Shown here in pieces: positions 24,154-50,415 of a stretch of 64,000 nt of DNA; position 1 is the first letter of the stretch; every line of letters begins with the position of its first letter. The stretch spans positions 4,803,001 through 4,867,000 of the forward strand of contig CP004371.1 of the NCBI GenBank assembly GCA_000597885.1. The letters run 5' to 3'. The position numbers and the translations under genes were made by a program. This DNA is from Flammeovirgaceae bacterium 311. GTDB lineage: Bacteria; Bacteroidota; Bacteroidia; Cytophagales; Cyclobacteriaceae. Under the pieces are notes generated by a model that worked only from the letters and a program-made list of their open reading frames with translations, was not told where the DNA came from and ran no database searches.

Positions 24154-24804
24154 CTAAAACAGGCCTGTAATCTTTTCTAAGCTAAGGTTATCAAAATCCT
24201 GAATCACCAGGTCGGTATCCTGTAGCTCTTCAGGTGTATGTGTTGTGGTGATTCCAATCACTTTCATGCCTGCGTTCAGGCCAGCCTGCACACCGGGAAG
24301 AGAATCCTCGATAACGATGCAATTTCCGGGCGCTACCCCCAGCTGTGCAGCGGCTTTCAGATAAACTTCCGGATGTGGTTTGCCATGGGTTACATCTTTG
24401 GAATGGACCAGTACATCGAAATACTGGCGGATGTTGAGAAGGTCAAGAACAAAATCAAGATTTGCCAGGGGTGCTGATGTGCCAACAGCGGTGGCTATTC
24501 CTCTTTCCTTAATTTCTTGCAGGAAAGAATGCAGGCCTTTTACTGCTTTGATATCCTCCTTATACAGGTCTCGGAAAATCGCTTCTTTTTCGTTTGCCCA
24601 CTGTTCTGTTTGTTGAGGGCTGGCATCATCGCTGAAGATATAAGACATAATTTCTTTGTTGGTGCGGCCAAACACATTTGTCTTTAACTCTTCATCGCTT
24701 AGGGTAATGTTATGTTGTTTTAAAAAAGCCTGAAAGGCCAGCTTATGGTAGGGGTTACTGTCTACAATTACACCGTCCATGTCAAAAAGTATCGCAATAT
24801 TCAT
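24154..24804 (-). CDS. HAD-superfamily sugar phosphatase / beta-phosphoglucomutase-like protein
   Basis: 216 residues, cytoplasmic. HAD motif I is FDMDGVIVDSNPYH (nucleophile Asp near residue 8, acid/base Asp two later), motif II is GTSAPL near residue 108, the conserved Lys lies in GKPHPEVYL near residue 140, and motif IV is VIEDSLPGVQAG. The helical cap after motif I is of the beta-phosphoglucomutase type. It may act on a sugar phosphate from the neighbouring catabolic genes. It is transcribed away from the DUF4832 gene and separated from it by 173 bases in which I see no feature. Confidence 0.88.
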   Translation of the reverse strand: MNIAILFDMDGVIVDSNPYHKLAFQAFLKQHNITLSDEELKTNVFGRTNKEIMSYIFSDDASPQQTEQWANEKEAIFRDLYKEDIKAVKGLHSFLQEIKERGIATAVGTSAPLANLDFVLDLLNIRQYFDVLVHSKDVTHGKPHPEVYLKAAAQLGVAPGNCIVIEDSLPGVQAGLNAGMKVIGITTTHTPEELQDTDLVIQDFDNLSLEKITGLF

Positions 24805-24977
24805 GCTGCTGTAGCGTCTGTTTAGTGGTTTTTACATGTTTTACCCACCCCAGGCCTGGCGGCAGGAGTTAATGCTGATCATAGCTTCCCTTTTATGCCT
24901 AAAGCATTACGGGAGGCTCGCCACGAAGCAAACATGTACATAGCAGGATTTGTCTGCTGCATCAGGTAAAACTTCTT

Positions 24978-26495
24978 TTAATCAATCGTTAAGGTGTGAT
25001 TAAGTTTATTGTAGCCGGTAGTTTCTTCCCAGATATCTTCATTTGCCAGGCGAATACTGTATTCAGGTCTGTTGGCGATGCTGCTATATTTATCCGGCAG
25101 CTGTAAAAATAGTTCATAGTCTCCGGCAGGGATGCTGGCAACTGAAAACTCTTCCTCCACTTGGACTTCACCGGTAAACCAGCGGCGTACATCAGCCTGG
25201 AATGGCAGGACGTGTTCCGTGGCATCTGAAACATTTCGTAAAATAAGATTAAGCGGTCGTCTGTTGTAGGGAGAGGCATAGCCTGTGTTTTCCAGCTGCA
25301 GGGATATTTCAAGCTTTTCAGACTGGCTGATCTGGCTTGAATAAGTTCCTTCTCTTAAAATCAGGCGGTAACCCAGTTTTCTTTTAATGCTTTCCATGCA
25401 GCCACCGCTTACCCAATCATTATTTACCTCATTGTTATAGGCAGTGTTCAGATAGGTGTAATGCATGGTGCTTAATTCTGTTTCTGCTTTTCCGGCCGGT
25501 TCACAGTCGTTTTGGGGGCTGTAGCCGTCGCTGCAGGTTTCTCCGCCTACTACTACATATTTGCTGTCTTCAGAAAAGTAACTTCTTAGGGTAGTGTTTG
25601 CATTTCTGCGGGGGGAACTGGAGTTGCCGTAGTCTTCGTAGGTGCCAAAGTCGTTGCTGCTGGCCAGCAGGCAATCGTTATGAAAGCCAATTCTGGCTTT
25701 ATCACTATCTGTAAAGGCTTCATCGGCGGTAAGGGCTGGCGAGCTTACGGGAGCATCGATGCCATAGACCAGGCGCTGTTTAATTTGTGGGTAGCGCACC
25801 TGCACCATGATATCTTTGGGCGTTGCATCCAGCAGTGCTTTCAATACCTCAATGCGATCCTGCCAGTTGTTATCCAGGAGCTGGCCCTGGTCGTTAGAGG
25901 AGGCGTCGCCAAAGTAATCGGTATAGTAATTTTCGCCCCAGGTTCCGATAAAACCCATTTGTATACAGGCAATAACATCTGCATTTACCTCAAAAACAGG
26001 CTTCAGCTGGCTGATGTGTTCCAGGACAATGTTTTTAGGCGCATCTCCATAGGGCGGACAAATAAAATCTTCAGGGCAGTTTCCTGGATTTGCGCTTACT
26101 GTATAGGTAAAGCGGGGAATCAGCTTTACTCCGGCAGCCCGGGCAGTGGTAAAGTCAGCATGCACCTTACCAATAAATTCTTCCGATAGTGGTGCTGCCT
26201 TGAAAGCATCTATTATATAGTAGCGGAACACCAGGGTGCTTACTACGTCATAGGCTGCACCAGCTACAGTTCTGGGTGTTCTGTAGCTTTTTAAAGTGGC
26301 TTCGGATAAGGGGCTGTAATTACTGGCCAGGGTTTGGGAGTAATGATAAAACCCACGCTCCGGGTTTGGAAAGTCTTCCTGGCTCTCTTCATATCGTATT
26401 GTGGCAGCAGCTTCTTTAACCAGAGCAGGTTCTGTATCCGAGCAACCAGGCAGCACCAGGGCTGATAGAAGAAGTAAGAAAAAGGTCTGTTTCAT
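24978..26495 (-). CDS. DUF4874/DUF4832 lipoprotein, candidate glycosidase
   Basis: 505-residue lipoprotein (LLSALVLPGCSD). The N-terminal part (about 33-200) is of the DUF4874 type, beginning with FPNPERGFYHY; the middle and C-terminal part is of the DUF4832 type, with ARIGFHNDCLLASSNDFGTY near residue 267 and a C-terminal beta domain. Two acidic residues stand in conserved settings shared with the protein at 29143-32388: E188 in GTWGENYY and E319 in VGGETCS. In a TIM-barrel-like protein these would suit an acid/base and nucleophile pair, but no activity is established as far as I know. It is divergent from the PKD lipoprotein gene. Confidence 0.8.
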   Translation of the reverse strand: MKQTFFLLLLSALVLPGCSDTEPALVKEAAATIRYEESQEDFPNPERGFYHYSQTLASNYSPLSEATLKSYRTPRTVAGAAYDVVSTLVFRYYIIDAFKAAPLSEEFIGKVHADFTTARAAGVKLIPRFTYTVSANPGNCPEDFICPPYGDAPKNIVLEHISQLKPVFEVNADVIACIQMGFIGTWGENYYTDYFGDASSNDQGQLLDNNWQDRIEVLKALLDATPKDIMVQVRYPQIKQRLVYGIDAPVSSPALTADEAFTDSDKARIGFHNDCLLASSNDFGTYEDYGNSSSPRRNANTTLRSYFSEDSKYVVVGGETCSDGYSPQNDCEPAGKAETELSTMHYTYLNTAYNNEVNNDWVSGGCMESIKRKLGYRLILREGTYSSQISQSEKLEISLQLENTGYASPYNRRPLNLILRNVSDATEHVLPFQADVRRWFTGEVQVEEEFSVASIPAGDYELFLQLPDKYSSIANRPEYSIRLANEDIWEETTGYNKLNHTLTID

Positions 26496-26501: not shown

Positions 26502-26640
26502 CTTTCGTAAACGTATAAAGAAAGCTTAAGTTATATAAGCTTGCTTACAAAACCTTTTAATCGCACAAATAATAAATAAATGAAAATATTATTTCTTTTA
26601 TTTGATTATCTTTTTACATTTAGATGAAAGATTGAAACGA
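26502..26640. promoter_or_regulatory. Divergent promoter region with CTTTCGT-type operator motifs
   Basis: The AT-rich gap between the DUF4832 gene and the PKD gene has CTTTCGT at 26502-26508, ATGAAAG at 26624-26630 and GAAACGA at 26634-26640. A near -7 element TTTATTTG lies at 26597-26604. The motif matches those before the second susC (32770, 32827) and agaS (38344), so a shared DeoR/AgaR-type repressor may act here. Confidence 0.45.
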
Positions 26641-26684: not shown

Positions 26685-27602
26685 ATGAAGAGGGAAAGAC
26701 TATTTTTCTGGGGCTTAAGCAAAGTAATGTTGTTCGCTGCTTTGGTTACATTGGCAGCATGTGGAGGGGATGATGATCCTGAGCCTGAACCAACTGCTTC
26801 TTTTACCTATGAGGCAGATAATCGTGAGGTAACTTTCACAAATACATCTACCAATGCCACAAGCTATCAGTGGGACTTTGGTGATGGAAACACATCTACA
26901 GAACAAAGCCCTGTGCATACTTATGATGAATACGGTACCTATACCGTACGTATGACTGCAACAGGCCCTGGTGGAACTGCTACCTCCCTGCCGGATCAAA
27001 TTACTCTGGCTAAATCTTCGCCGGTAGAGATTGACGGAGATGTTTCTGATTGGTCTGACATACCTGCACTGGTTACCGCGACTGCTGGTGAGGGTGGCAC
27101 AATCAACAGCATAAAAGTAGATTATGATGCTGAACGTATCTATTTTCTGGTAGAGGGTACTGCTAATCTGCGGGGCTTTTTCGACATTTATCTTGATGCT
27201 GACAACGATCCTGAAACAGGTTACTTCAGTGGCTGGTATCCAATGGGCTTTGGTGCTGATTATCTGATTGAAGGTGATTTTGCCATGGTGAATGATGCCG
27301 ATATTTTCAGAGATCTTGAAGGAGAGCCTGAAACCTGGGGCTGGGAAGTAGCATCTGCTACAGGTGCAGGTGCCATTAATTCCTCAGACATCATCACTCA
27401 GGGTAATGGCAGGGCAATTGAATTCTCAATTCTGCGTTCAGCTTTTACCGATCTGTCTGACGAAGGCTTCTCTTTTGCCATTGTAGATGTAGACGGAACG
27501 GTGGATCCCAATAATACAACTGCAACCTGGGCAAGACTGGGTGCTCTTCCAGAGCCAGATCGTGAAGAATCGCAGCTGGTTTTCTTTGAAATGTCAGAAT
27601 AA
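26685..27602 (+). CDS. PKD-domain lipoprotein with DOMON/CBM9-like module, candidate glycan-binding protein
   Basis: 305 residues with lipobox LVTLAACGGD. A PKD domain (about residues 35-110) shows TFTNTSTNATSYQWDFGDG. The rest (about 115-305) begins VEIDGDVSDWSDIPALV and continues YFLVEGTANLRGFFDIYLDAD and FGADYLIEGD, a CBM9/DOMON-like sandwich. The same module appears twice in the T9SS protein at 29143-32388. No catalytic residues are apparent, so a surface glycan-binding role comparable to SusE/SusF proteins is my inference. A terminator follows at 27619. Confidence 0.75.
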   Translation: MKRERLFFWGLSKVMLFAALVTLAACGGDDDPEPEPTASFTYEADNREVTFTNTSTNATSYQWDFGDGNTSTEQSPVHTYDEYGTYTVRMTATGPGGTATSLPDQITLAKSSPVEIDGDVSDWSDIPALVTATAGEGGTINSIKVDYDAERIYFLVEGTANLRGFFDIYLDADNDPETGYFSGWYPMGFGADYLIEGDFAMVNDADIFRDLEGEPETWGWEVASATGAGAINSSDIITQGNGRAIEFSILRSAFTDLSDEGFSFAIVDVDGTVDPNNTTATWARLGALPEPDREESQLVFFEMSE

Positions 27603-27716: not shown

Positions 27717-29081
27717 ATGAGCAGCACTACATCCAGAAGAGGATTTGTGAAGACGGCCGCTTTAGCCGGTTTAGGATTGTCTATTTTACCATCAGGTGTC
27801 GTTTTTTCAAAAGATAAAGACAGAAAAGCAAGACTTGGTTTTATTGGTGTTGGGCTGAGAGGGCAGCATCATCTGCAGCTGGCGTTACAGCGAAACGATG
27901 TTGAGGTATTGGCCATTTGCGATGTGCAGCAGCGCATGATTGACATGAGCAAGGACCTGATCAAAAAGTCTGGAAAGCGCATGCCACAGGTGATCATGGA
28001 TGGCCCTTATGGATATAGGAAACTTTTGGAGAATAAAGATATTGATGCAGTTGTTATCTCCACCCCCTGGGAGTGGCATACAGAGATGAGCATTGATTCT
28101 ATGAATGCCAAAAAGTATGTGGGGTGTGAAGTAATGGTAGGCGCAACGGTAGAGGAGTGCTGGCAGATTGTTCATACTTCTGAGCGCACAGGCATGCCCC
28201 TGATGATGCTTGAAAATGTTTGCTACCGCCGCGATGTGATGGCGGTACTGAATATGGTGCGCCAAAATCTTTTTGGAGAACTTGTGCATGTACAGGGTGG
28301 CTATCAGCACGACCTGCGGGAGGTGAAATTCAATGACGGCAAACAACCCTATGGTGGTGGTGTAGAGTTTGGGGAAGGGGCTTTTTCCGAAGCTCAGTGG
28401 CGTACGCATCATTCAGTACACCGTGATGGAGATCTGTATCCAACCCATGGTATCGGGCCAGTCGCCATGATGATCGATATCAACAGAGGAAACCGGTTCA
28501 CAGAACTTGTGTCTTATTCGTCCAAATCCCGTGGCTTGCATGATTTCATTGTGAAACGTGGCGGTGAAGACCATCCCAATGCAAAAGTTAAATTTAAGCT
28601 GGGAGATGTGGTTACTACGATGCTGAAATGTTCTAATGGCGAAACAGCTTTACTGCAGCACGATACCAATCTTCCAAGGCCTTATTCGCTTGGATTCCGC
28701 GTGCAGGGAACAGAAGGGCTCTGGATGGATTTAAATAACTCGATTTACCTGGAAGGCAAAAGCAAAAAGCCTCATGAATGGGATAATGCCCAGGAGTGGC
28801 TTGATAAGTACGATCACCCGCTCTGGAAAAAATATGGAAACGATGCTTCCGGTGCAGGACATGGTGGTATGGACTGGTTTGTAATGCATGCCTTTGTAGA
28901 GTCTGTGAAACGTAAAATTCCTACTCCGCAGGATGTATATGATGCCGTTACCTGGAGTGCCATAACACCACTCTCGGAATCATCCATTCGTTTAGGTGGC
29001 GAAACCGTTGAGTTCCCTGATTTTACGCAGGGTAAATGGATGCACCGGAAAAACGAATTTGCACTTAATGATGATTACTGA
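27717..29081 (+). CDS. GH109 alpha-N-acetylgalactosaminidase (Gfo/Idh/MocA fold, Tat-exported)
   Basis: 454 residues. The N-terminus SRRGFVKTAALAG is a twin-arginine signal, as expected for an enzyme that folds with bound NAD in the cytoplasm. The Rossmann domain starts LGFIGVGLRGQHH, followed by VISTPWEWHTEMS, the LENVCYRRDVMAVLNMVRQ helix and GGYQHDLR. The family block YPTHGIGP places the catalytic-region His at residue 244. These blocks are those of GH109 rather than ordinary inositol dehydrogenases. It would release terminal alpha-GalNAc by a redox-assisted elimination mechanism in the periplasm. It supports GalNAc as the monomer used by this locus. Confidence 0.9.
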   Translation: MSSTTSRRGFVKTAALAGLGLSILPSGVVFSKDKDRKARLGFIGVGLRGQHHLQLALQRNDVEVLAICDVQQRMIDMSKDLIKKSGKRMPQVIMDGPYGYRKLLENKDIDAVVISTPWEWHTEMSIDSMNAKKYVGCEVMVGATVEECWQIVHTSERTGMPLMMLENVCYRRDVMAVLNMVRQNLFGELVHVQGGYQHDLREVKFNDGKQPYGGGVEFGEGAFSEAQWRTHHSVHRDGDLYPTHGIGPVAMMIDINRGNRFTELVSYSSKSRGLHDFIVKRGGEDHPNAKVKFKLGDVVTTMLKCSNGETALLQHDTNLPRPYSLGFRVQGTEGLWMDLNNSIYLEGKSKKPHEWDNAQEWLDKYDHPLWKKYGNDASGAGHGGMDWFVMHAFVESVKRKIPTPQDVYDAVTWSAITPLSESSIRLGGETVEFPDFTQGKWMHRKNEFALNDDY

Positions 29082-29142: not shown

Positions 29143-32100
29143 ATGAAGCCAGTAACATTCATGAAATTGAAATACTTTTTGCTGACACTTGTGCTGGCTG
29201 TAGTGCTCCATATTCCGGCCGCGGAGGCACAAAACTTATCTACCATTACCTATGGTACAGAGGAGTCTAACATACCTAACCCGGAGCGGGGCTTCTACCG
29301 CCATACCGAAACCAGTACTGCTAATTACTCTAATCTGAACGAAACAACATTACGAAACTACCGTGCCGAAGGATTTACGCTGATCCTTCGGCTTTTTTAT
29401 CTCAATGATTTTGTAGAAACAGATATCTCAGAAGCTTACCTGAGTGCCATGCAGCGGGATTTTAACGCCATGCGGGCTGCCGGGGTAAAAGGTGTGATCA
29501 GGTTTGCCTACACCAAAAAATCATCAGCGCCTTATGGCGATGCAAGACCAGAGCGGGTGCTGGCGCATATCGATCAGCTTTCTGCTGTGTTAAAGCGCAA
29601 CAGCGACGTGATAGCAGTGGTGCAGGCAGGTTTTGTCGGTGCCTGGGGAGAATGGTACTATACAGATCATTTCTCTGAAATACTGGGCAATCCAACAGCC
29701 GAAGACTGGGAAAACAGAAGAGCGCTGGTATATGCGCTCCTGGAGGCTTTGCCAGAAAACCGTGCTGTACAGCTGCGTACGCCGGATATTAAATTTAAAG
29801 TCACCGGGTCAACGGATGCTCTCACCGAAGAAGAAGCCTTTGGCGGATCTGCAGAAGCCCGCCTGGGGCACCATAACGACTGCTTTCTGGCATCGGCAAA
29901 TGACATTGGTACCTACACAAATAATATGGAGGCAGAAAAAGCATTCCTGGAGCAGGAAACCCGCTATTTGCCCATGGGCGGAGAAACCTGTGGTGTTTCC
30001 GTGCCTTTGTCTGAATGTCCGAATGCCCTGGAGCAGATGGAGCGTTTTCACTGGTCTTATTTAAATATTGGATACCATCGGGATGTGCTGCGTAGCTGGG
30101 AAGATGGAGGATGCATGCCCGAGGTAGAAAATAAGCTGGGTTATCGCTACAGGTTTGCTAAGAGCCAGCTTCAGCAAAGCAGTAAACCTGGCGGGGAGGT
30201 AAGACTCTCTGTTAAAATGCTGAACGAAGGCTGGGCAAATCCTTATAACCCGCGCCTGGTGGAGGTTATTTTAAGGGAGAAAACCAGCGGGAAGGTATAT
30301 GTGCTGCCTGTTGCGGAAGATCCCCGGCGCTGGTCTTTATCTGATACCATTCATCTGGAATTAACTGCCGGACTGCCGGCTAATATCGCGGAAGGTACCT
30401 ACGATATGTTCCTGAATTTACCTGATCCGGAGCCTGCCCTGTACGCAAATCCAGACTACTCCATCCGCCTGGCAAACCAGGAGGTTTGGGAGCCGGCAAC
30501 AGGCTATAATGCTTTGCAGCATGAGTTAGTGGTAAGCAGAGACGCTAATGTGCCATCCTATACCGGGAGCAATTTTTTTTTCTCAAGACCCCAGGTTCAG
30601 GAGTACGCCCAGATAAGTACCAACGGCCTCGCCGATGACTGGAATGCTGTGGAACCGCTGGTTGAAGAAGCAGGACAGGCAGCTGAGTCGCTCAGGGTTT
30701 TTAATGATCGGGATAGCCTTTATTTTCTGATATCCGGCACCTCCCTGCATAACAGTTATCAACTCTTTATAGATGCCGACCAGACTGCTGCTACGGGCTA
30801 CAGGGCCTGGCAATGGGTGGCGAATGGTGCTGATTATTTGGTAGAGAATGGTTTGCTTTATCAGTATGATGGTGCTGACGGGGCCTGGGGCTGGAGGCTT
30901 GTTGAACCTGTTTCTGTGGAACAGAATGAGTCTGTGATTGAAATAGGTATTTCAAAGAGTTATTTCTCCAACATTCAGTTAGGCCCGGAAATTTCACTGG
31001 CCTTTGTAAACGATCCGGCGGGAGAAGGGCAAAGTAGCTATTTGCCCCTGCAGAATCAGCCATTTATTGCCTACAGGCTGCTGCTGGATCTTCCGGCCAC
31101 ACCGCTGGCAACTTCTTCCGGTAACACAGTGCTGGTGTACTGGGGGCTGGAGGAGCACCAGGTTTACCGAACTTTGCAAAGAGCTGCCGATGGAGAAGAG
31201 TTTCAGACGATTGCTGTACTTGATCCTGGCATATTTTATTACACTGATGCAGGTCTGGAGCAGAATGTCAGCTATCGGTACCGCTACTTTGCCGGTACGG
31301 CAAATGGTACCAGCCTGTCAACCTATACCCCTGCGGTAGAAATCACAACCCGTCCCAGGCCGGTTTATTATAGCTTTTCTGTTGATGGAGCAGTAGAGGA
31401 GTGGGAGGGGGTAGCTCCGCTGGCCACAGCCTATAGCGGAGAACGCACCCATACCATCCGGCTGTTCGCAGGACCCGAAAACTTATATCTGCTTCTGGAG
31501 GGAGCTGTTCCTGATGATTATGCCATTTACCTGGATACAGATAATGATTCTGCTAGCGGCCTGGAGAATGAATTGTGGACCGGGGCAGGTTATGATTACC
31601 AGATCAGGAACGATTCTCTTTTTACTGCACAGGCAGACGACTGGGTGTTTGTGGAGAAGGTGAGCAGTGAGGCTTCCAATGGCTTTTATGAGCTTTCTGT
31701 TCCGCTAAGCCTGCTGGAAAACCTGGAGCAGAATACCACCCTTAAGGTTGGAGCTGTTGTTACCCCTCTTTCAGGAGAGCAGGTATTTCTGCCATTTGAA
31801 TCTGCCGCCCCGGCAGTATTCGTAAGGATTTTGCCTGCACAGGCCCCCGCTAATGTCATGGTGTCAAATTCAGAGAGTATGCCTGGTTCGCAGCTGATTG
31901 TGGAGTGGCAGCGATGTGATCAGTGTCTGGGCTATGTGGTGGAAAGATCCGTGGGGAATACAGATAATTTTGAGGTGGTGGCAGAAAAGAGTGCGCTAAC
32001 CTTTGCTTATTATGATAGCGATGTGGAGATGGGAACCACCTACTACTACCGGGTGTATACTTTCAACGAAGCAGGTCCTTCTCTTTATTCAGAAGTGGTT

Positions 32101-32388
32101 TCAGCATCGCCTGAAGCAACCTTGGGACTTGAGGATGCTGTTTTTCCAGGGGTTTACGTATTCCCGAATCCGGCAGTAAATACACTAAGGCTGCATCTTG
32201 CCGGTAATTCACCTGCTGCAGTACGGCTTCAGTGGACGGATCTGCAGGGCAGGGTGCTGCCATTGCAGCCAGAAGGCTTGTATGAGCAGGGGCTGCGATA
32301 CAATCTCTCCGGTCTTCGTCCTGGCCTTTACCTGCTAAAGATCAGCGATCATACCACAGCCCGTTACATTAAGGTTTTGAAAGAGTAA
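29143..32388 (+). CDS. Giant secreted DUF4874/DUF4832 protein with two CBM9-like modules, FN3-like domains and T9SS tail
   Basis: 1081 residues with a signal peptide ending near AAEAQ. Residues 35-460 are the DUF4874/DUF4832 part, with NPERGFYRH, E170 in GAWGEWYY, LGHHNDCFLAS and E281 in GGETCG. A CBM9/DOMON-like module (about 485-645), an FN3-like segment, a second CBM9-like module (about 740-890) and another FN3-like segment follow. The last ~80 residues (FPGVYVFPNPAVNTL to YIKVLKE) are a T9SS type A sorting domain. This is the architecture of a secreted polysaccharide-degrading enzyme. I infer an endo-acting hydrolase or lyase on a galactosamine-containing polymer, but no family assignment proves it. 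Confidence 0.8.
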   Translation: MKPVTFMKLKYFLLTLVLAVVLHIPAAEAQNLSTITYGTEESNIPNPERGFYRHTETSTANYSNLNETTLRNYRAEGFTLILRLFYLNDFVETDISEAYLSAMQRDFNAMRAAGVKGVIRFAYTKKSSAPYGDARPERVLAHIDQLSAVLKRNSDVIAVVQAGFVGAWGEWYYTDHFSEILGNPTAEDWENRRALVYALLEALPENRAVQLRTPDIKFKVTGSTDALTEEEAFGGSAEARLGHHNDCFLASANDIGTYTNNMEAEKAFLEQETRYLPMGGETCGVSVPLSECPNALEQMERFHWSYLNIGYHRDVLRSWEDGGCMPEVENKLGYRYRFAKSQLQQSSKPGGEVRLSVKMLNEGWANPYNPRLVEVILREKTSGKVYVLPVAEDPRRWSLSDTIHLELTAGLPANIAEGTYDMFLNLPDPEPALYANPDYSIRLANQEVWEPATGYNALQHELVVSRDANVPSYTGSNFFFSRPQVQEYAQISTNGLADDWNAVEPLVEEAGQAAESLRVFNDRDSLYFLISGTSLHNSYQLFIDADQTAATGYRAWQWVANGADYLVENGLLYQYDGADGAWGWRLVEPVSVEQNESVIEIGISKSYFSNIQLGPEISLAFVNDPAGEGQSSYLPLQNQPFIAYRLLLDLPATPLATSSGNTVLVYWGLEEHQVYRTLQRAADGEEFQTIAVLDPGIFYYTDAGLEQNVSYRYRYFAGTANGTSLSTYTPAVEITTRPRPVYYSFSVDGAVEEWEGVAPLATAYSGERTHTIRLFAGPENLYLLLEGAVPDDYAIYLDTDNDSASGLENELWTGAGYDYQIRNDSLFTAQADDWVFVEKVSSEASNGFYELSVPLSLLENLEQNTTLKVGAVVTPLSGEQVFLPFESAAPAVFVRILPAQAPANVMVSNSESMPGSQLIVEWQRCDQCLGYVVERSVGNTDNFEVVAEKSALTFAYYDSDVEMGTTYYYRVYTFNEAGPSLYSEVVSASPEATLGLEDAVFPGVYVFPNPAVNTLRLHLAGNSPAAVRLQWTDLQGRVLPLQPEGLYEQGLRYNLSGLRPGLYLLKISDHTTARYIKVLKE

Positions 32389-40949: not shown

Positions 40950-41897
40950 ATGGATAAAATCCATGATGTTGTAGTGGTTGGAGAGCTTAATGTTGACCTG
41001 ATCCTCAACCAGATTGATCAGTTTCCGGAAGTAGGGAAGGAAGTGCTGGCGGGAAACATGAACCTTACCCTGGGCAGCAGTTCTGCCATCTTTGCCAGTA
41101 ACTTAAGTACTCTTGGCGCTAAAACCACCTTCATTGGAAAAATAGGGAAGGATAGTTTTGGTGAACTGGTAATTTCCAGCTTAAAGTCCCGGGGGGTTGA
41201 CACAGGCAATATCCTCCTGGACGATCAGCATCAGACCGGTGCTACCATTGTTTTGAATTTTGGGGAAGACAGGGCCATGGTGACCCATCCCGGCGCTATG
41301 GATCACCTTAAGCTGGAAGATGTGCAGGAAGCGGTACTGAAAAGTGCCAGGCACCTGCACCTGAGCTCCGTGTTCTTACAGGCAGGCTTAACCAAACAGC
41401 TGGTGCCTCTCTTCAAAAAAGCAAAAGAATTAGGGCTTACTACCTCCATAGACCCGCAATGGGACCCTGCAGAACACTGGGATATAGACCTGGAGGCGCT
41501 TCTTCCCCATGTAGATGTATTTATGCCCAATACCGCCGAATTGATGGCGCTGACTAAAACCAGCACTCTGGAGCATGGTATTGAAAGCTTAAAGGGCTAT
41601 GCCAATATCCTGGTGGTGAAAGGGGGTCGCGCAGGAGCCTGGGCCTGGGGGGAGGGTGCGCTAGTGCATCAGCCTGCATTCCTGAATGAGCAGGTCGTGG
41701 ACAGCATTGGTGCAGGAGACAGCTTTGATGCAGGTTTTATCTCAAAATACATACAGGGAAAGTCACTGCAGGAGTGCCTGGAATTTGGTGCCTTAAGCGG
41801 GGCGATCAACACCACCCGACCCGGGGGTACCACTGCCTTCGAAAACCTCAATCTGGTAAAAACAATTGCCGAATCAACTTTTAACTACACCTTTTGA
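40950..41897 (+). CDS. PfkB-family carbohydrate kinase (probable tagatose-6-phosphate kinase)
   Basis: 315-residue ribokinase-fold kinase. The N-terminal VVGELNVDLILNQ and GSSSAIFASNLSTLGA blocks bind sugar; the C-terminal PfkB signature DSIGAGDSFDAGF carries the catalytic base D257. By position between the aldolase subunits it most likely makes tagatose-1,6-bisphosphate from tagatose-6-phosphate. A role as a GalNAc or GalN kinase cannot be excluded, since none is otherwise visible. Its stop overlaps gatY by 4 bases. Confidence 0.88.
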   Translation: MDKIHDVVVVGELNVDLILNQIDQFPEVGKEVLAGNMNLTLGSSSAIFASNLSTLGAKTTFIGKIGKDSFGELVISSLKSRGVDTGNILLDDQHQTGATIVLNFGEDRAMVTHPGAMDHLKLEDVQEAVLKSARHLHLSSVFLQAGLTKQLVPLFKKAKELGLTTSIDPQWDPAEHWDIDLEALLPHVDVFMPNTAELMALTKTSTLEHGIESLKGYANILVVKGGRAGAWAWGEGALVHQPAFLNEQVVDSIGAGDSFDAGFISKYIQGKSLQECLEFGALSGAINTTRPGGTTAFENLNLVKTIAESTFNYTF

Positions 41898-42715
41898 TGA
41901 CACTTCAGGATAAACTTGCCATACTTGGGCAGGAGGGTAAAGCCCTGCTTGCTACTAATTTCTATAATTTCGAAACACTTTCAGGGGTGCTCCAGGCTGC
42001 AAAAGCAGCTGGTCAGCCCGTGATCCTTCAGCTTTCTGAGAGCTCTATTCATTACCTGGGCCTGAATGTTGCTGCCGCAATGGCACGTGCAGCCCTGGAG
42101 GCCTACGAGGTGCAGGGATGGCTGCACCTGGATCATGGCAGTTCCGTAGAAATAGCCCATCGCTGTCTCGATGCCGGCTTTGATTCGGTGATGATCGATG
42201 CCAGCGAACAATCCTATACCGAAAATGTAAAGACAACGCTGGAAGTGGTTAAGCTGGCCGAGCGATATGGGGCAAGTGTAGAAGCGGAGCTTGGCTATGT
42301 GGCAAAGCTGGGGCAGGAGCAATCGAGTATCTATACCCAGCCCGAAGAGGCTAGTCGCTTTGTAGAAGAAACGGGCATTAACGCCCTGGCCATTGCCATT
42401 GGATCAGCACATGGTTTTTATAAGGAAACCCCAAAGCTGCAGCTGGAGCTGCTCTCCCGCATACACGAAGCCACACCTGCTGCCCTGGTGCTGCATGGAA
42501 GCTCCGGCATACCTGACGACCAGCTACGGGAGGCCATCAGGCGAGGTATTTCAAAAGTAAACCTGGCTACCGAAACCAAGAACATGTTCATGAAAACCCT
42601 GCAGGAGGTGTTGCGCAACAACGAAGAAATTGATCTTCGCAAAGTATTTCCTGTTGCCACGGCTTCGGTGGTAAAACTTATTACACAAAAACTTAGTGTT
42701 GTATCGCCTGCATGA
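41894..42715 (+). CDS. Class II tagatose-bisphosphate aldolase catalytic subunit (GatY/KbaY)
   Basis: 273 residues. The zinc and active-site motif HLDHG lies at residues 78-82, followed by GFDSVMIDASEQSYTENV, EAELGYVAKLG, the second metal His in AIGSAHG and the LHGSSGIPDDQLREAI block with its zinc His. It splits tagatose-1,6-bisphosphate to dihydroxyacetone phosphate and glyceraldehyde-3-phosphate, closing the pathway. ATGA overlaps on both sides couple it to the kinase and the following amidohydrolase gene. Confidence 0.92.
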   Translation: MMTLQDKLAILGQEGKALLATNFYNFETLSGVLQAAKAAGQPVILQLSESSIHYLGLNVAAAMARAALEAYEVQGWLHLDHGSSVEIAHRCLDAGFDSVMIDASEQSYTENVKTTLEVVKLAERYGASVEAELGYVAKLGQEQSSIYTQPEEASRFVEETGINALAIAIGSAHGFYKETPKLQLELLSRIHEATPAALVLHGSSGIPDDQLREAIRRGISKVNLATETKNMFMKTLQEVLRNNEEIDLRKVFPVATASVVKLITQKLSVVSPA

Positions 42716-43794
42716 TTAGGGTACTGGCGTACATACTGGCTGCACTAACAGGTACAGTTGGTTTGTGCCAGGCACAAACTCCAGATGCCTTGTTGCTGAA
42801 AGATTATCGGCCGCAGTCCATTTACAAAATACCCGTTACCAAAATCACCAAAGCCAGGTATCCGGTAATCGATATGCATTCCCATGCCTATGCCCAATCT
42901 GAGGAGGAGCTTGCCCATTGGGTGGGTGTAATGGATCAGGCAGGTATTGAGAAAACCATTATCCTTAGCTATTCCACCGGAGCAGCCTTTGACTCAATTT
43001 ACCAGGTGTATGCAAAGTGGGGTAACCGCTTTGAGGTATGGTGTGGCTTTGACTACACCGGCTACACCGAACCGGGCTGGAGCGAAAAGGCTGTGCGGGA
43101 ACTGGAGCGTTGCTACAAGGTGGGGGCCAGAGGTGTTGGTGAACTGGGCGATAAAGGGCTGGGCGAATTGTACTCAAAACCAACCAAGGGACGGGGCATG
43201 CACATAGACGATGCCCGCATGAAGCCCCTGCTGGCAAAATGCGGCGAGCTGAAGATGCCCATCAGCATACACGTAGCTGAACCCATGTGGATGTACCAGC
43301 CCATGGATTCTACCAATGACGGCCTGATGAATGCTTATGTCTGGCAGATTGATAAAAGTGAGAAAGGTTTCCTGGATCATGGAGCCCTTATCAACACCCT
43401 GGAAAATGCCGTGCGTGAGAATCCAAAAACTACTTTCATTGCCTGCCATTTTGCCAACTGCGAAGCCGACCTCTCGGTGATTGGCCGCCTCCTGAGCCTC
43501 TATCCCAACCTGTATGCCGATATAGCTGCCCGTTATGCCGAAACAGCTCCAATACCCCGCTACATGCAGGCGTTTTATCAGCAGCACCAGAACAAACTGC
43601 TCTATGGTACCGACATGGGCATGGATGCCGAGATGTACCAAACCACCTTTCGCATTCTGGAAAGCAGGGATGAGCATTTTTACAAAATTGATCAATTTAA
43701 TTACCACTGGCCTCTGCATGGCTTTGGCCTGGAGCCGGCGGTGCTGAAAAAGCTGTACCAAAGCAATGCGGCCAAAATCCTGAAAAGAAAGTAA
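42712..43794 (+). CDS. Secreted amidohydrolase-superfamily metal-dependent hydrolase
   Basis: 360 residues with a signal peptide (LAALTGTVGLCQAQ). The TIM-barrel metal site starts with HxH in VIDMHSHAYA near residue 56; ISIHVAEPMW (His near 187), FIACHFANCEADL (His near 245) and LLYGTDMGMD (Asp) supply the other ligands. This is the amidohydrolase-2 pattern (decarboxylase/lactonase/deacylase type), not NagA. It is translationally coupled to a cytoplasmic aldolase although it should be exported, which is odd. Substrate unknown; an N- or O-acyl group on the glycan is possible. Confidence 0.8.
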   Translation: MIRVLAYILAALTGTVGLCQAQTPDALLLKDYRPQSIYKIPVTKITKARYPVIDMHSHAYAQSEEELAHWVGVMDQAGIEKTIILSYSTGAAFDSIYQVYAKWGNRFEVWCGFDYTGYTEPGWSEKAVRELERCYKVGARGVGELGDKGLGELYSKPTKGRGMHIDDARMKPLLAKCGELKMPISIHVAEPMWMYQPMDSTNDGLMNAYVWQIDKSEKGFLDHGALINTLENAVRENPKTTFIACHFANCEADLSVIGRLLSLYPNLYADIAARYAETAPIPRYMQAFYQQHQNKLLYGTDMGMDAEMYQTTFRILESRDEHFYKIDQFNYHWPLHGFGLEPAVLKKLYQSNAAKILKRK

Positions 43795-43799: not shown

Positions 43800-45872
43800 A
43801 TGAAAGCTTCCTCTAACATACTCTTATTGATGCTGATCCTTTCTGCCTGTGTAGGGCAGGAAGCAGTAGTTCAGCCCAAAGAAGTAGTAATTCAGCATGG
43901 AAAGCTGGTTCTGCAGGTAACAGATGAGCTCCACACAAGGGTTTCTTCCACCCGCCAGGGAATGGGGCCATTCATGGAGGCCGCCATGCCATCAGAATAT
44001 CTGATCACAGAAAATTTTACGGCGCAGGATTTTAAACTGAACCATTCCAGCACGCAACCTATTGCCGATTCTGTGGGTGCCGGCCAGCAATGGACGCTGA
44101 AAGGTAGCAGTAAGCAGGGAGAGGCAAGCCTTGAAAAGATCGTGACGGTACGGGCCTATGACAGCTTGCCCGATATGGTAGTGATGCAGGTAGCTTATAT
44201 TAATCGTTCACCCGAAGCCATTCAGGTAAACAAGTGGGTGAACCATCATTACAGCGTTTTGCCGCATCAGGATACAACCCTGTTCTGGTCCTTTCAGGGA
44301 GGCTCTACCAGCCACCGCAAAGACTGGATACAGGCCCTGCAGCCGGGATTCAGCCAAAAGAATTATATGGGGATGAACAGCTCCGATTATGGTGGAGGTA
44401 TTCCCGTAACAGACCTCTGGCGGCCCGATGGGGGCATTGCCATTGGTCATGCTGAGCTGTTGCCGAGATTGGTTTCTCTTCCCGTGGATATTGATAAGGA
44501 GGAGACAGCAGCCAGCATCAACATAGAATTTGATTATGAGGAGCCTGTGCAGCTTGGGGCTGGAGATACGCTGAAAACCTATGAAACCTTTGTGATGGTT
44601 CACGAGGGTGATTACTATAATGGTCTGCAGGCTTATGGAGCTCTGCTGCGGGCCAAGGGTTTAGAGTTTGTTGAGTCCGAAGAAGCCGCCTATGAATCTT
44701 CCTGGTGTGCCTGGGGCTATATGCGTGACTTTACACTGGATGAAATCCTCGGTACCCTGCCAAAGGTGAAAGAGCTGGGTATCCAATGGGTAACCATCGA
44801 TGATGGTTTTCAGCTGGCAGAAGGAGACTGGCAGGTAAACCGGCTAAAATTTCCACGAGGCGATGTCCAAATGAAAGCCCTGGTAGACACGATCCATTCC
44901 TATGGGTTGAAGGCAATGCTCTGGTGGGCGCCCCTGGCTGCAGATCCTCACAGCAAGCTTTTGCAGGAGCATCCGGATATGAAATTGCTTGCAGCAGACG
45001 GAACGCCACAGGATATTACCTGGTGGGATTCTTATTACATGTCGCCGGCCTATGATAAAACCATTCAGCATACCGAAGAGGTTGTAAACCTGTTTATGAA
45101 GCATTGGGGCTTCGATGGGCTAAAGATGGATGGCCAGCATCTGAATGCCGTTGCACCAGACTATAATCCTGAGCACGGTCTGGCTTATCCGGAAGAGTCT
45201 GTGGAAAAACTTCCCGTCTTCTTCAAAAATATTTACGAACAGGCAAGGAGCATCAAGCCCAATGCCGTGATTCAGAACTGCCCCTGCGGCACCTGCATGT
45301 CGGTATTCAACATGCCTTACATGAACCAGGCAGTTGCTTCCGATCCGCTTTCCAGCTGGCAGATCAGGCATAAAGGAAAAACATACAAAGCGCTGATAGG
45401 AAAAACTGCATACTTTGGCGATCATGTAGAGCTGAGCGATGGGCGCAACGACTTTGCAAGCTCCTTTGGTATTGGGGCGGTACTGGGTACTAAATTTACC
45501 TGGCCCCGCGAAAATCCAACGGTTACAGAAGATAACCTGCTAACGCCGGAACGGGAGAAAATCTGGAAAAAGTGGTTTGACCTTTACCATGAGAAGATGC
45601 TTTCGAAGGAAACTTACCTGGGTGGCTTATATGACATTGGCTGGGAGCTGCCCGAAACCCACGTTGTTCAGAAAGGCGATACCCTCCATTATGCTTTCTA
45701 CAATAAACACTGGGATGGAACTGTGCGCCTGAAGGGCCTGCAGGATAACCAGCAATACCGGGTTCGGGATTATGTGAATGGAGTAGACCTGGGTGTGGTA
45801 AAAGGCCCGGTGGCAGAACTGCCGGTATCCTTTACAAAAAACCTGCTGATTGAAGTTTATCCTGAAAATTAG
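43800..45872 (+). CDS. GH36-type (clan GH-D) lipoprotein: alpha-galactosidase or alpha-N-acetylgalactosaminidase
   Basis: 690 residues, lipoprotein (LMLILSACVGQE). An N-terminal beta-supersandwich (about 25-290) precedes a TIM barrel with WVTIDDGFQLAEGDW and LWWAPLAADPHS. The nucleophile is D444 in GLKMDGQH, and D515 in VASDPLSSWQ fits the acid/base. An intervening CPCGTCMSVFNMPY block is typical of this GH36 branch. Given the AgaS pathway and GH109 neighbours, alpha-GalNAc is a likelier substrate than alpha-Gal, but the sequence alone does not settle it. It starts 5 bases after the amidohydrolase. Confidence 0.85.
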   Translation: MKASSNILLLMLILSACVGQEAVVQPKEVVIQHGKLVLQVTDELHTRVSSTRQGMGPFMEAAMPSEYLITENFTAQDFKLNHSSTQPIADSVGAGQQWTLKGSSKQGEASLEKIVTVRAYDSLPDMVVMQVAYINRSPEAIQVNKWVNHHYSVLPHQDTTLFWSFQGGSTSHRKDWIQALQPGFSQKNYMGMNSSDYGGGIPVTDLWRPDGGIAIGHAELLPRLVSLPVDIDKEETAASINIEFDYEEPVQLGAGDTLKTYETFVMVHEGDYYNGLQAYGALLRAKGLEFVESEEAAYESSWCAWGYMRDFTLDEILGTLPKVKELGIQWVTIDDGFQLAEGDWQVNRLKFPRGDVQMKALVDTIHSYGLKAMLWWAPLAADPHSKLLQEHPDMKLLAADGTPQDITWWDSYYMSPAYDKTIQHTEEVVNLFMKHWGFDGLKMDGQHLNAVAPDYNPEHGLAYPEESVEKLPVFFKNIYEQARSIKPNAVIQNCPCGTCMSVFNMPYMNQAVASDPLSSWQIRHKGKTYKALIGKTAYFGDHVELSDGRNDFASSFGIGAVLGTKFTWPRENPTVTEDNLLTPEREKIWKKWFDLYHEKMLSKETYLGGLYDIGWELPETHVVQKGDTLHYAFYNKHWDGTVRLKGLQDNQQYRVRDYVNGVDLGVVKGPVAELPVSFTKNLLIEVYPEN

Positions 45873-47412: not shown

Positions 47413-48726
47413 TTGACAAACATTTTACAACAACCGGTCTCTAAGGAGAAAGCAGCGCTTCCTGAGCGGAAATGGATGAGTCCGATCCTGATCATTGGAG
47501 CCTTATTTTTCATTTTCGGATTTATCACCTGGTTAAACTCAGTGTTGATCCCCTACCTGAAGATTGCCTGTGAACTAAATAATCTTGAATCTTATTTAGT
47601 AGCCTTTGCTTTTTACATTGCCTACCTGGTGATGGCGATACCCTCTGGCTGGGTGCTTAATTTTTCCGGCTATAAAAAAGGGATGTCATTAGGCTTGGTA
47701 GTAATAGCGGTGGGCGCTATTATTTTTATACCGGCGGCACTTACACGGCAGTACCTGGTTTTCCTGGTGGGCCTGTTTGTACAGGGCACCGGGCTGGCAC
47801 TGCTGCAAACCGCCTCAAATCCCTACATCACAATTATAGGCCCGCGCGAAAGCGCTGCAAAGCGGATCAGCATCATGGGAATCTGCAATAAGTTTGCAGG
47901 TGCTCTTGCTCCTATTGTACTGGGCGCTGTTGCGCTCAGCAATGTAGATCATCTTGTAGATGCGGAAGGCTTTACCAGTGCAAGTGCGAGTGCCCAGGAG
48001 CTGGATGCCCTGGCTGCCAGGGTAGTTGTACCATACATTATCATTGCTGCTGCTCTGTTGGTACTGGCGCTGCTTGTTTATTTCTCCAGCCTGCCAGAAG
48101 TGGATACAGATAAGGAAGAAGAAGGCGTTGTTCAGTCAGCGACAAGCCGGAAAAGTGTACTTCAGTTTCCTCATTTGCTGTTGGGAGCAATAACCCTCTT
48201 TTTATACGTTGGCGTGGAGGTACTTGCAGGCGATTCGATCATCAGTTACGGGGGCTCGCAGGGTATCTCTCTTGAAACAGCAAAGTTCTTTACCACTGCA
48301 ACACTGGTGGCCATGATTGTGGGTTATATTATAGGTATTATCTGCATTCCTAAATATTTAAGCCAGGAAAAAGCATTACTGTACTCCGGTGGTCTTGGCA
48401 CCATTCTCTCCTTTGTAGTAATCTTCACAGATGGTTACGTCTCTGTTTCGGCCCTTGCTTTACTTGGTTTAGCTAATGCCCTGGTGTGGCCTGCTATCTG
48501 GCCTATGGCACTCAATGGTCTGGGCCGTTTTACAAAGGCAGGTTCCTCACTCCTCATCATGGGGATTGCAGGCGGAGCACTTATCCCTTTGCTGTATGGC
48601 CAGCTGGCGGATATGTTTTCTGCAAGAGACGCTTACTGGATACTGGTGCCTTGCTACCTGTTCATTCTGTATTATGCGTTGTCAGGACATAAAGCAGGCA
48701 GCCCCAACAGTACCCCTAAGCGCTGA
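47413..48726 (+). CDS. FucP/NagP-type MFS sugar permease
   Basis: 437 residues with 12 predicted transmembrane helices. FITWLNSVLIPYLK in helix 1, GWVLNFSGYKKGM, GTGLALLQTASNPYI and ESAAKRISIMGICNKFAGALAP are signatures of the fucose/glucose/GlcNAc proton symporter family. It would carry the released monosaccharide, probably GalNAc or GalN, over the inner membrane. The frame begins with TTG at 47413; the first ATG (47476) would remove the 21 residues that usually precede helix 1, so I keep TTG with caution. Confidence 0.88.
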   Translation: MTNILQQPVSKEKAALPERKWMSPILIIGALFFIFGFITWLNSVLIPYLKIACELNNLESYLVAFAFYIAYLVMAIPSGWVLNFSGYKKGMSLGLVVIAVGAIIFIPAALTRQYLVFLVGLFVQGTGLALLQTASNPYITIIGPRESAAKRISIMGICNKFAGALAPIVLGAVALSNVDHLVDAEGFTSASASAQELDALAARVVVPYIIIAAALLVLALLVYFSSLPEVDTDKEEEGVVQSATSRKSVLQFPHLLLGAITLFLYVGVEVLAGDSIISYGGSQGISLETAKFFTTATLVAMIVGYIIGIICIPKYLSQEKALLYSGGLGTILSFVVIFTDGYVSVSALALLGLANALVWPAIWPMALNGLGRFTKAGSSLLIMGIAGGALIPLLYGQLADMFSARDAYWILVPCYLFILYYALSGHKAGSPNSTPKR

Positions 48727-48784: not shown

Positions 48785-48824
48785 AAACATCTGCAGGCCG
48801 TTCTTCAACGGCCTGCAGATGTTT
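48785..48824 (+). other. Perfect 18-base hairpin between the permease and GH31 genes
   Basis: The arms at 48785-48802 and 48807-48824 are exact complements around a CTTC loop. Only TTTAAAA follows, so it is an imperfect terminator. It sits 19 bases before the GH31 start codon and may end permease transcripts or act as a 3' stabiliser with read-through. Confidence 0.65.
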
Positions 48825-48843
48825 TAAAATCCGGACAGTTACT

Positions 48844-50415
48844 ATGAAAATAACTAAAACAATTGTTGTTCTGCTTGCCCTGCTGTGGTCTGCAAGTGTG
48901 CAGGCACAGGTACGATCTTCCGTGAAGGTGCTACAAAACGAAAACTGGTGGGTGGGTATCGTTTTTAACGGCCACCTCATGCCCTTAACAGAAACCTTTA
49001 CTTTCGATATGGCCAGGGACGCAACCCCTAATCAGCTTCAGCCCTTACTGGTATCTGATAGAGGCCGGTACATCTTTTCAGAATCACCTGTAAAATTCAC
49101 TTTCCGAAACGATAGCCTCTTATTCGAAGGAGATAAGAAACTGTCAGCCAGGAATGCCGGAAGCACCCTAAGAGAAGCATATCTGAAAGCTTCAGGCGAA
49201 CATTTTGCCTTCAATGGCAAATATCCCCACGAGGAGCTATTTAAAAAGCCACAGTACAATACCTGGATTGAGCTTGGCATTAACCAAAACCAGAAAGGAA
49301 TTATTCAGTATGCCCAAACCATGCTTGACAACGGCATGCCACCCGGTGTATTGATGATAGATGACACCTGGCAGCAGGATTACGGGGTCTGGAACTTTGA
49401 TAAAAATGTTTTCCCCGATGCCAGCGCCATGATGGACACCCTCCATGCCATGGGTTTTAAGGTAATGCTATGGATCTGCCCCTTTGTCAGCCCCGATTCC
49501 AGAGAGTACCGGCTGCTGGAAAGGGAAGGAGGCCTTTTGCTGGAGCAGGATAGTGACAGGCCTAAAATGGTTCGTTGGTGGAATGGGGTAAGTGCGGTGC
49601 TGGATCTGAGCCATCCCAATGCGGTAAAATGGTTTAAGGCGCAGCTCGACAGGCTGCAGCAGCAATATGGAGCAGATGGCTTTAAGTTTGATGCTGGAGA
49701 TACCTATTTCTATTTCAACTCAAGGTCTTACGGCAACATTTCAGTGAATGAGCATTGCCGTTTGTTCAACGAAATAGGCCTGGATTACCCCCTGAATGAG
49801 TATCGTGCTGCATGGAAAATGGGAGGAGCACCTTTGGCGCACAGGCTGCAGGATAAAGGCCATAACTGGGAAGACCTGCAGTTACTGATTCCGCATATTG
49901 TACTGCAGGGGTTAATGGGTTACCCTTACAACTGCCCGGATATGATAGGCGGCGGAGAAATGGGATCTTTCCTGAAAACAGAAACCATCGATCAGGAGCT
50001 GGTGGTGCGTTCCACCCAATGCCATGTGTTTACGCCCATGATGCAGTTTTCTGTAAATCCTTTCCGGATTCTGGACGAGGCACATGCCAGTGCTGTGAAA
50101 GAAGCTGTTGCTTTACGTCAGAAGTTTGTTCCTGTTATTATGGAATTGGTAGAAAATGCATCGAAGACAGGGGAGCCTGTGGTACGGTCTATGGAATACG
50201 TTTTCCCCCACCAGGGTTATGCTGCTGTTACTAATCAGTTTCTGTTGGGAGATAAGTATCTTATTGCTCCTGTTCTGGAGAAAAATGCTTTGACCCGAAA
50301 AGTATTATTACCGAAAGGAAAATGGAAAGATGCAAATGGGAAAGTATGGAATGGCGGAAGGGAAGTGGCCGTTAAAGTAAATTTATCGTCAATTCCATAT
50401 TTTGAAAAACTATAG
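48844..50415 (+). CDS. GH31 family alpha-glycosidase (secreted)
   Basis: 523 residues with signal peptide (LLALLWSASVQAQ). The barrel shows VLMIDDTWQQDYGVWNFDKNVFPD, MLWICPFVSPDS, nucleophile D283 in GFKFDAGDTY and acid/base D366 in YNCPDMIGGGEMG. It lacks the long inserts of alpha-glucosidases and is compact, like the Bacteroidota GH31 branches active on alpha-galactosides and possibly alpha-GalNAc. It is the last gene of the locus, just after a strong hairpin. No terminator was found in the 220 bases that follow (50416-50636), which otherwise hold nothing recognisable. Confidence 0.88.
   Translation: MKITKTIVVLLALLWSASVQAQVRSSVKVLQNENWWVGIVFNGHLMPLTETFTFDMARDATPNQLQPLLVSDRGRYIFSESPVKFTFRNDSLLFEGDKKLSARNAGSTLREAYLKASGEHFAFNGKYPHEELFKKPQYNTWIELGINQNQKGIIQYAQTMLDNGMPPGVLMIDDTWQQDYGVWNFDKNVFPDASAMMDTLHAMGFKVMLWICPFVSPDSREYRLLEREGGLLLEQDSDRPKMVRWWNGVSAVLDLSHPNAVKWFKAQLDRLQQQYGADGFKFDAGDTYFYFNSRSYGNISVNEHCRLFNEIGLDYPLNEYRAAWKMGGAPLAHRLQDKGHNWEDLQLLIPHIVLQGLMGYPYNCPDMIGGGEMGSFLKTETIDQELVVRSTQCHVFTPMMQFSVNPFRILDEAHASAVKEAVALRQKFVPVIMELVENASKTGEPVVRSMEYVFPHQGYAAVTNQFLLGDKYLIAPVLEKNALTRKVLLPKGKWKDANGKVWNGGREVAVKVNLSSIPYFEKL

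Follow-up and report, generated by a model that had tools for sequence, protein, structure and literature searches.

A probable locus for the use of α-1,4-linked galactosamine exopolysaccharides, with DUF4874-DUF4832 proteins, in Flammeovirgaceae bacterium 311

The genes considered here lie at positions 24154–50415 of a 64,000-nucleotide stretch of the Flammeovirgaceae bacterium 311 genome (contig CP004371.1, positions 4,803,001 to 4,867,000, forward strand), which is referred to below as the window. It is probable that they form a polysaccharide utilization locus (PUL) for an α-1,4-linked galactosamine (GalN)/N-acetylgalactosamine (GalNAc) exopolysaccharide made by other microbes, either bacterial Pel or fungal galactosaminogalactan. 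Linked to a SusC/SusD pair are genes for glycan-active enzymes and for a regulator, the arrangement by which a PUL is defined. A sequence-only reading of the same DNA had proposed that the locus degrades a polymer rich in α-GalNAc or GalN. That proposal is supported by the linkage of agaS and of glycoside hydrolase (GH) family 109 genes to DUF4832 genes, and by the precedent of SIR_1591, a DUF4832 protein described in the available part of PMC12345266.

Two genes of the locus encode proteins of the DUF4874-DUF4832 type. The product of the first (24978–26495, minus strand; P0003; Pfam 206 and 145 bits) has a lipoprotein leader, as judged by eye, and is a predicted surface endo-hydrolase. The second (29143–32388, plus strand; P0004; 237 and 163 bits) is a predicted secreted endo-hydrolase with a type IX secretion system (T9SS) sorting tail (Por_Secre_tail, 28.9 bits). 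In Pfam scans at E 0.001, which covered the 17 genes of 24154–50415, the two proteins matched only DUF4832 and DUF4874, plus the T9SS tail on one of them; neither matched GH114 (PF03537) at that threshold. In a profile search of the PDB with the DUF4832 alignment, the matches were weak and confined to the C-terminal end, where the T9SS tail lies.

The AlphaFold2 model of P0003 (predicted local distance difference test score, pLDDT, 91; predicted template-modelling score 0.90) is a TIM barrel in which two conserved carboxylates occupy positions suited to catalysis. One is E188, which follows strand 4, and the other is E319, immediately behind strand 7; both are invariant in 36 aligned sequences. 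The top rows of a Foldseek comparison of the model with the PDB comprised β-amylases (GH14-type), a GH26-type mannanase and GH5-type barrels, with query-normalized template-modelling (TM) scores of about 0.3. On the basis of the model, E188 and E319 may be catalytic, and DUF4874-DUF4832 proteins are likely to be two-glutamate hydrolases. It had been suggested from the sequence that the DUF4832 proteins make the first cuts, and this prediction agrees with the published behaviour of SIR_1591, the one precedent that was found for activity on such a polymer. This protein of the Streptococcus intermedius pel operon, which consists of a TIM barrel and a DUF4832 domain, disrupts preformed Pel aggregates with an activity comparable to that of PelA (PMC12345266, in extract). 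DUF4832 is reported as an accessory gene of streptococcal and clostridial pel operons in the accessible portion of PMC7112168. One related locus, L034, encodes a third DUF4874-DUF4832 protein (208–5580; 1790 aa) with a T9SS tail.

The linkage of these genes was determined in a sample of 392 genomes of the phylum to which the window belongs. DUF4832 was present in 19 of these genomes, strong AgaS in 23, GH109 in 113 and the CE4-like family described below in four. Strong AgaS denotes a score of at least 150 bits, a line set after the scores had been seen (at a gap from 154 to 42), so that 18 of 41 genomes fell below it and were not counted. Six genomes share agaS and DUF4832, where 1.1 would be expected (one-sided p 3.4e-4); with the window's own genome removed there are five (p 1.9e-3). 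In all six, the two genes occupy the same contig, 2.4–31.6 kb apart. GH109 was found in 12 of the 19 DUF4832 genomes, with 5.5 expected (p 1.5e-3), and a hand count placed it less than 12 kb from DUF4832 in eight of these 12 and not in the other four. DUF4832 genes were thus not placed at random with respect to agaS or GH109; random placement would have told against the original proposal. Strong agaS was absent from 13 of the 19 DUF4832 genomes. The p values are guides only, because the sampled genomes are related. The pairing of AgaS with GH109 is a general one, since it is common to 20 of the 23 AgaS genomes; 15 of these 20 have no DUF4832, and the AgaS-GH109 genomes possibly represent a wider group of GalNAc loci.

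Gene neighbourhoods were counted in stretches of approximately 15–20 kb per match (two for some genomes), for the 18 DUF4832 genomes of the sample besides the window's own and for 79 named loci. The latter derive from the best 80 of at least 589 DUF4832 relatives in the genome collection, ranked by score to query A1, and are not a random draw; L131 and L132, taken from the wrong contigs, and L133 were left out of the counts. Among the 18 genomes, the stretch contained SusC in nine, GH109 in six, a PKD lipoprotein in six, a NagX-like gene in five, GH36, GH31 and an amidohydrolase in three each, and agaS, pfkB or gatY in two, while seven had none of the tested genes. The low count for agaS arises because the gene lies about 8–18 kb outside the stretches in three genomes (G108, G171 and G376).

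The 79 loci fall into several contexts. At least one Pel-like synthesis gene (PelF-type transferase, GH114 or DUF2194) was found in 19, and relatives of one or more of agaS, pfkB and gatY in 13 (L032–L037, L039, L044, L054, L057, L069, L090 and L105); no locus had both. Five others had SusC/SusD or related hydrolases only. DUF4832 thus occurs, where its context can be read, mostly with makers or users of a galactosamine-type polymer. As labelled, the catabolic group comprises Cytophagales, Bacteroidales, Saprospiraceae, metagenome-assembled genomes (MAGs) of Calditrichaceae and Melioribacteraceae, and one actinomycete (L069), in which an agaS relative (38% identity) and a GH36 gene (43%) lie within 10 kb. 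The labels Rickettsiales (L037) and Leptolinea (L105) look doubtful, because these loci have SusCD genes.

The Pel-like context is exemplified by L041, in which positions 10007–21359 encode a PelF-type glycosyltransferase (DUF3492 and GT4), a GH114 protein, a DUF2194 protein and two proteins that match nothing in Pfam. In five genomes of the group, one of the latter scores 19–26 bits to PelG, for which the cut-off is 29, and weak PelG matches fit this gene by coordinates in four (L042, L047, L060 and L065). L041 and 17 similar loci share this Flavobacterium-type block of GH114, DUF4832 hydrolases, DUF2194, PelF-type transferase and weakly PelG-like protein, which is possibly an undescribed pel variant. 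The nineteenth Pel-like locus, from a Nitrosomonas MAG (L071), has PelG well over the cut-off (511 bits) and a PelF-like gene beside DUF4832. PelG exceeded its cut-off in three of 78 genomes (L071, L084 and L100), and its position beside DUF4832 is established for L071.

The exo-enzyme families at the locus are all of the α type. The GH109 protein (27717–29081, plus strand), a predicted exo-α-N-acetylgalactosaminidase with a twin-arginine-like leader by eye, combines the GFO_IDH_MocA fold with the GH109 C-terminal domain (GH109_C, 309 bits), as expected of that family. The GH36 protein (43800–45872, plus strand; Melibiase, 57 bits) is a predicted α-galactosaminidase with a lipoprotein leader by eye. 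Its nearest PDB chains are 8x1b and the FpGalNase chains 9awt and 9ayu (259–264 bits); 8x1b was deposited as an α-galactosidase, and its sequence is nearly the same as those of 9awt and 9ayu in the alignment. Residues D463, C513 and D532 are given as essential in FpGalNase (PMC11762096, in part). C496 and D515 of the GH36 protein align with C513 and D532 and are invariant in seven aligned sequences; D444, also invariant, fits D463 only if an alignment gap is shifted by two, on a K-x-D motif. The GH31 protein (48844–50415, plus strand), a predicted α-galactosidase, is closest to GH31 α-galactosidases (PDB 8j50–8j53, 525–562 bits), and its relatives (46–53% identity) occur near DUF4832 in L037, L098, L101, L119, L125 and L128. 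The solved GH31 α-galactosidases presumably prefer α-1,4-galactobiose, a preference on which the literature search yielded no paper. The sugars of galactosaminogalactan are GalNAc, GalN and galactose (Gal), and those of Pel are GalNAc and GalN, according to the available extracts of PMC12054363 and PMC12345266. GH109, GH36 and GH31 thus provide a predicted α-exo-enzyme for each galactosaminogalactan sugar.

A 496-aa protein (P0001; 45896–47386, plus strand) had not been named previously. It has no signal peptide by eye and is a putative deacetylase resembling carbohydrate esterase family 4 (CE4), with IDD and HGxGH motifs. D21, D22, H124 and H128 are invariant across six aligned rows, one of them partial, and we take the pairs D21/D22 and H124/H128 to follow the CE4 motif order (motif 1, DD; motif 2, HxxxH). 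Searches of Pfam, NCBIfam and the PDB, the last with a profile, gave no match by sequence. The sole Foldseek match in the PDB below E 1e-3 was PelA from Pseudomonas thermotolerans (9cgy; E 1.4e-4, probability 1.00, TM 0.36/0.25). PelA is a Pel modification enzyme with a deacetylase, and it served as the comparison for SIR_1591 in Pel-aggregate disruption (PMC12345266, in extract). The four sampled genomes with the P0001 family all have strong agaS, and three have DUF4832. A signal peptide was seen by eye in one of six copies of the family (L036).

Genes for uptake and sugar catabolism occupy much of the remainder of the locus. A NagP/GluP-type permease (47413–48726, plus strand) scores 306 bits to gluP, over the cut-off of 203, and 409 bits to NagP, under that of 625. 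The AgaS-family GalN-6-phosphate deaminase/isomerase (38397–39563, plus strand; closest PDB chains 3odp, 3i0z and 3c3j) scores 375 bits to TIGR02815, below the curated cut-off of 529; that cut-off seems to have been set for other lineages, as none of the 392 genomes passes it. A divergent GatZ/KbaZ-like protein follows (39608–40903, plus strand; PF08013, 124 bits), at 96 bits against a TIGR02810 cut-off of 569; a nearer form in L057 scores 540. The next two genes, also on the plus strand, encode a PfkB (ribokinase-like) kinase (40950–41897; 179 bits), which would be a galactosamine kinase or a tagatose-6-phosphate kinase, and a GatY-type class II bisphosphate aldolase (41894–42715; F_bP_aldolase, 285 bits). 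From their sequences, AgaS and GatY fit a route from GalN-6-phosphate to triose phosphates. Among the 17 genes there is no NagA/AgaA, nor any evident GalNAc or hexosamine kinase except PfkB. In L035 and G158 (L134), the ribokinase-like PfkB is accompanied by a LacC-like kinase, which suggests that PfkB is the first kinase. A deacetylate-first order is proposed because of this suggestion and of the absence of NagA and of another hexosamine kinase from the locus.

A NagX-like transmembrane hexosamine N-acetyltransferase gene lies near DUF4832 in L033 (17216–18310; 120 bits to NagX, cut-off 480). Relatives occur in L034, L101, L118, L119 and L120 and, weakly, in L123 and L124, several of them with GH109; no match was found in the window's own genome. 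By analogy with heparan sulfate breakdown, such a protein might re-acetylate GalN.

A DeoR-family repressor gene (37415–38194, minus strand; DeoRC, 194 bits) diverges from agaS. The word ACGAAAG, a motif chosen post hoc, marks candidate operators at 26502–26508 (minus strand), between the divergent genes at 24978–26495 and 26685–27602, at 32770–32776 (minus strand) and 32827–32833 (plus strand), upstream of susC, and at 38344–38350 (plus strand), upstream of agaS. The 64-kb window has six copies, four of them intergenic, and all four intergenic copies lie in the locus, before three units. A longer pattern, read from these same sites, occurs at four places before susC and agaS, with 0.32 expected, and none of 100 shuffles reached that number. 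ACGAAAGT was found upstream of agaS in three of nine agaS-bearing relatives scanned (L032, L033 and L039). The sequence resembles the AgaR operator of Escherichia coli.

By strand and spacing, the locus likely consists of three blocks. The first would be the minus-strand gene for the DUF4874-DUF4832 lipoprotein; the second, on the plus strand, the PKD lipoprotein, GH109, the secreted DUF4874-DUF4832 protein and SusCD; and the third, also on the plus strand, a catabolic block from agaS through GH31, divergent from deoR. All the genes on which the sequence-only reading rested (GH109, GH36-type, GH31, SusC/SusD, AgaS, GatZ, PfkB, GatY, permease, DeoR, two DUF4874/DUF4832 proteins and the PKD lipoprotein) were recovered at the expected positions. 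The lipoprotein described there as PKD/CBM9-like (26685–27602, plus strand) retains the first half of its name (PKD_4, 56 bits) and loses the second, as no scanned protein matched CBM9 at E 0.001; it is likely a surface glycan-binding protein, and relatives occur in 10 of the 79 loci. The SusC/SusD pair at 32869–37323 is indeed the second in the window, the first being at 14645–19443. It comprises a SusC-like TonB-dependent transporter (32869–35850, plus strand; Plug, 50 bits; CarbopepD_reg_2, 76 bits) and a SusD-like lipoprotein (35863–37323, plus strand; SusD_RagB, 85 bits). Besides P0001, one further gene is added, encoding an amidohydrolase (42712–43794, plus strand; Amidohydro_2, 58 bits) with a signal peptide by eye. 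Its relatives show 49–63% identity in L037, L044, L113, L125 and L134 (61–63% in the first two), all in stretches around DUF4832 genes. L033 and L034 largely repeat the gene order, although some genes are missing there or lie beyond the stretch covered.

Upstream, positions 12693–23971 seem to be a separate locus; it has its own SusCD, a GH2-like protein and three GH43 enzymes, and adjoins a hybrid two-component regulator (8332–12354). A tandem pair of tRNA-Lys (TTT) genes lies at 57430–57676 of the window.

Genes, homology, recurrent linkage and predicted folds are the observations from which a route can be proposed; its activities, locations and order are inferred. Internal cuts in the polymer would be made by the two DUF4874-DUF4832 enzymes, of which one is secreted and the other is a lipoprotein, and the oligomers would be bound and imported by the PKD lipoprotein and SusCD. 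In the periplasm, GH109 would remove GalNAc, GH36 would remove GalN and GH31 any α-galactose, and the NagP-type permease would import the sugars. In the cytoplasm, the CE4-like protein may convert GalNAc or short oligomers to GalN, the PfkB kinase may phosphorylate it, and AgaS would deaminate and isomerize GalN-6-phosphate to tagatose-6-phosphate. The product would be phosphorylated a second time and then split into triose phosphates by GatY together with the GatZ-like protein. DeoR would repress the units until a phosphosugar appears. A more ambitious proposal joins three claims: that this is the first full Pel-eating route, that DUF4874-DUF4832 is a new endo-α-1,4-galactosaminidase family, and that a relative of the PelA deacetylase has become a cytoplasmic catabolic enzyme in a deacetylate-first sequence (GalNAc to GalN, a PfkB-type galactosamine kinase, AgaS) without NagA or a GalNAc kinase. 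We advance this combination only tentatively, as less likely than not.

Several observations weigh against the proposed use of a GalN/GalNAc exopolysaccharide or against parts of the route. Known endo-galactosaminidases are absent among the best 50 Foldseek matches of the P0003 model. The P0001 model is middling (pLDDT 71), its TM values to PelA are those given above, and an hhalign comparison of its family with DUF2194 was not significant (E 0.35). The Pel-like loci are not independent, because 18 of the 19 form one synteny block, with 14 of the 18 named Flavobacterium, and 42 of the 79 loci have neither context nor related Sus or GH genes, some being on short contigs. In Noviherbaspirillum (L096, 3995–11803), two DUF4832 proteins lie beside capsule-type export-like genes, as judged by eye, and a Ruminococcus DUF4874-DUF4832-dockerin protein is reported as cellulosomal in a rumen consortium (PMC7480376, in extract). 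Six of the nine relatives scanned (L034, L037, L057, L090, L110 and L114) lack the operator word before agaS. Finally, the genome encodes, outside the locus, five ROK kinases and two NagA proteins that score above the cut-off, which makes a classical GalNAc-6-phosphate route possible.

As to the polymer itself, no match to PelF or GH114 was found in the organism's own genome; self-produced Pel was accordingly rejected as the substrate, and the organism is probably a consumer. Fungal galactosaminogalactan specifically (α-1,4-linked Gal, GalNAc and GalN), and not bacterial Pel, is a serious candidate, though we lean against so narrow a choice. The closeness of GH31 to α-galactosidases (562 bits) and the six loci with its relatives near DUF4832 favour it, as does the description of Pel without galactose in the accessible part of PMC12345266. 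GH31 could nevertheless take GalN or GalNAc here, it is in the stretch of only three of the 79 loci, and in 19 of them DUF4832 goes together with bacterial synthesis clusters of the Pel type. Another reading is that the substrate is a different bacterial glycan rich in α-GalN/GalNAc, such as a capsule, O-antigen or wall polymer, and that the link to Pel is only at the level of fold. The 42 loci in neither context, the L096 neighbourhood and the cellulosomal protein (PMC7480376, as excerpted) are in keeping with such a glycan. We regard it as unlikely in view of the biochemistry of SIR_1591 on Pel (PMC12345266, in the text available), the recurrence of DUF4832 with PelF-type, GH114 and DUF2194 genes, and the PelA-like predicted fold of the CE4-like protein.

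A locus for host glycans (mucin O-glycans or chondroitin), comparable to BT4240-50 of Bacteroides thetaiotaomicron, would also have GH109, a permease and GalNAc catabolism, and the general pairing of GH109 with AgaS (20 of 23 AgaS genomes) would be consistent with it. It is nonetheless very improbable here: the Pfam scans of the 17 genes revealed no family characteristic of mucin or glycosaminoglycan loci, with M60 peptidases, sulfatases, polysaccharide lyases, fucosidases, sialidases and β-hexosaminidases all absent, and the words tagatose, isomerase and DUF4832 do not occur in the accessible text of the BT4240-50 paper (PMC11992087). A sulfoquinovose locus, in which GH31, an isomerase, PfkB and a class II aldolase would also be combined, was rejected, as GH31 scores 562 bits to α-galactosidases and 43–47 bits to chains of the YihQ sulfoquinovosidase.

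Pel and galactosaminogalactan belong to the cationic polymers that make up the matrix of bacterial and fungal biofilms. According to the available part of PMC12054363, the known endo-enzymes for them fall into four families, in each of which few members have been studied. If the use of such a polymer by this locus is correct, biofilm matrices are food for other bacteria, a function is suggested for DUF4832 and DUF4874, and the locus offers candidate enzymes for the dispersal of biofilms together with exo-enzymes for each of the three possible sugars. Whether GalNAc is deacetylated before or after it is phosphorylated also becomes testable. No described locus for the utilization of Pel or galactosaminogalactan was found among the papers listed in searches of the open literature; in the extract of PMC11653725, GH135 appears only in a table. 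The locus is of a known kind, a PUL, for a substrate class with no described PUL found in that literature, and it brings together endo-hydrolases of an uncharted family and a putative deacetylase that resembles PelA.

Among known systems, the endo-galactosaminidases of GH114, GH135, GH166 and GH191 are TIM barrels that cut Pel or galactosaminogalactan internally (PMC12054363, in part), as is predicted for the DUF4832 proteins of the window. The latter differ in that they match no GH family of Pfam at E 0.001 and that enzymes of those four families are absent among the best 50 fold matches. The aga-type GalNAc pathways of Shewanella and E. coli employ AgaS, GatY/AgaY, GatZ/AgaZ and a DeoR-family regulator, as does the window. 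NagA/AgaA and an evident GalNAc kinase are, by contrast, missing from the locus. In Flavonifractor plautii, a deacetylase, FpGalNAcDeAc, works with the GH36 α-galactosaminidase FpGalNase on the blood group A antigen (PMC11762096, in extract); the window encodes a corresponding predicted pair, whose GH36 member was compared with FpGalNase. BT4240-50 shares SusCD, GH109, a permease of the major facilitator superfamily and GalNAc metabolism with the window; from what is available of PMC11992087, it has in its own right a mucin peptidase, GH2 and a GalNAc-1-kinase, whereas DUF4832, GH36, GH31, AgaS/GatY and the CE4-like protein are the window's own. A close parallel to the DUF4832 proteins is SIR_1591 and its counterparts in Gram-positive pel operons, which share the TIM barrel and the DUF4832 β domain and of which the streptococcal one acts on Pel (PMC12345266 and PMC7112168, both in extract). 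Those genes sit in the producer's own synthesis operon, whereas the genes of the window, in a genome without a PelF match, sit in a SusCD/AgaS locus.

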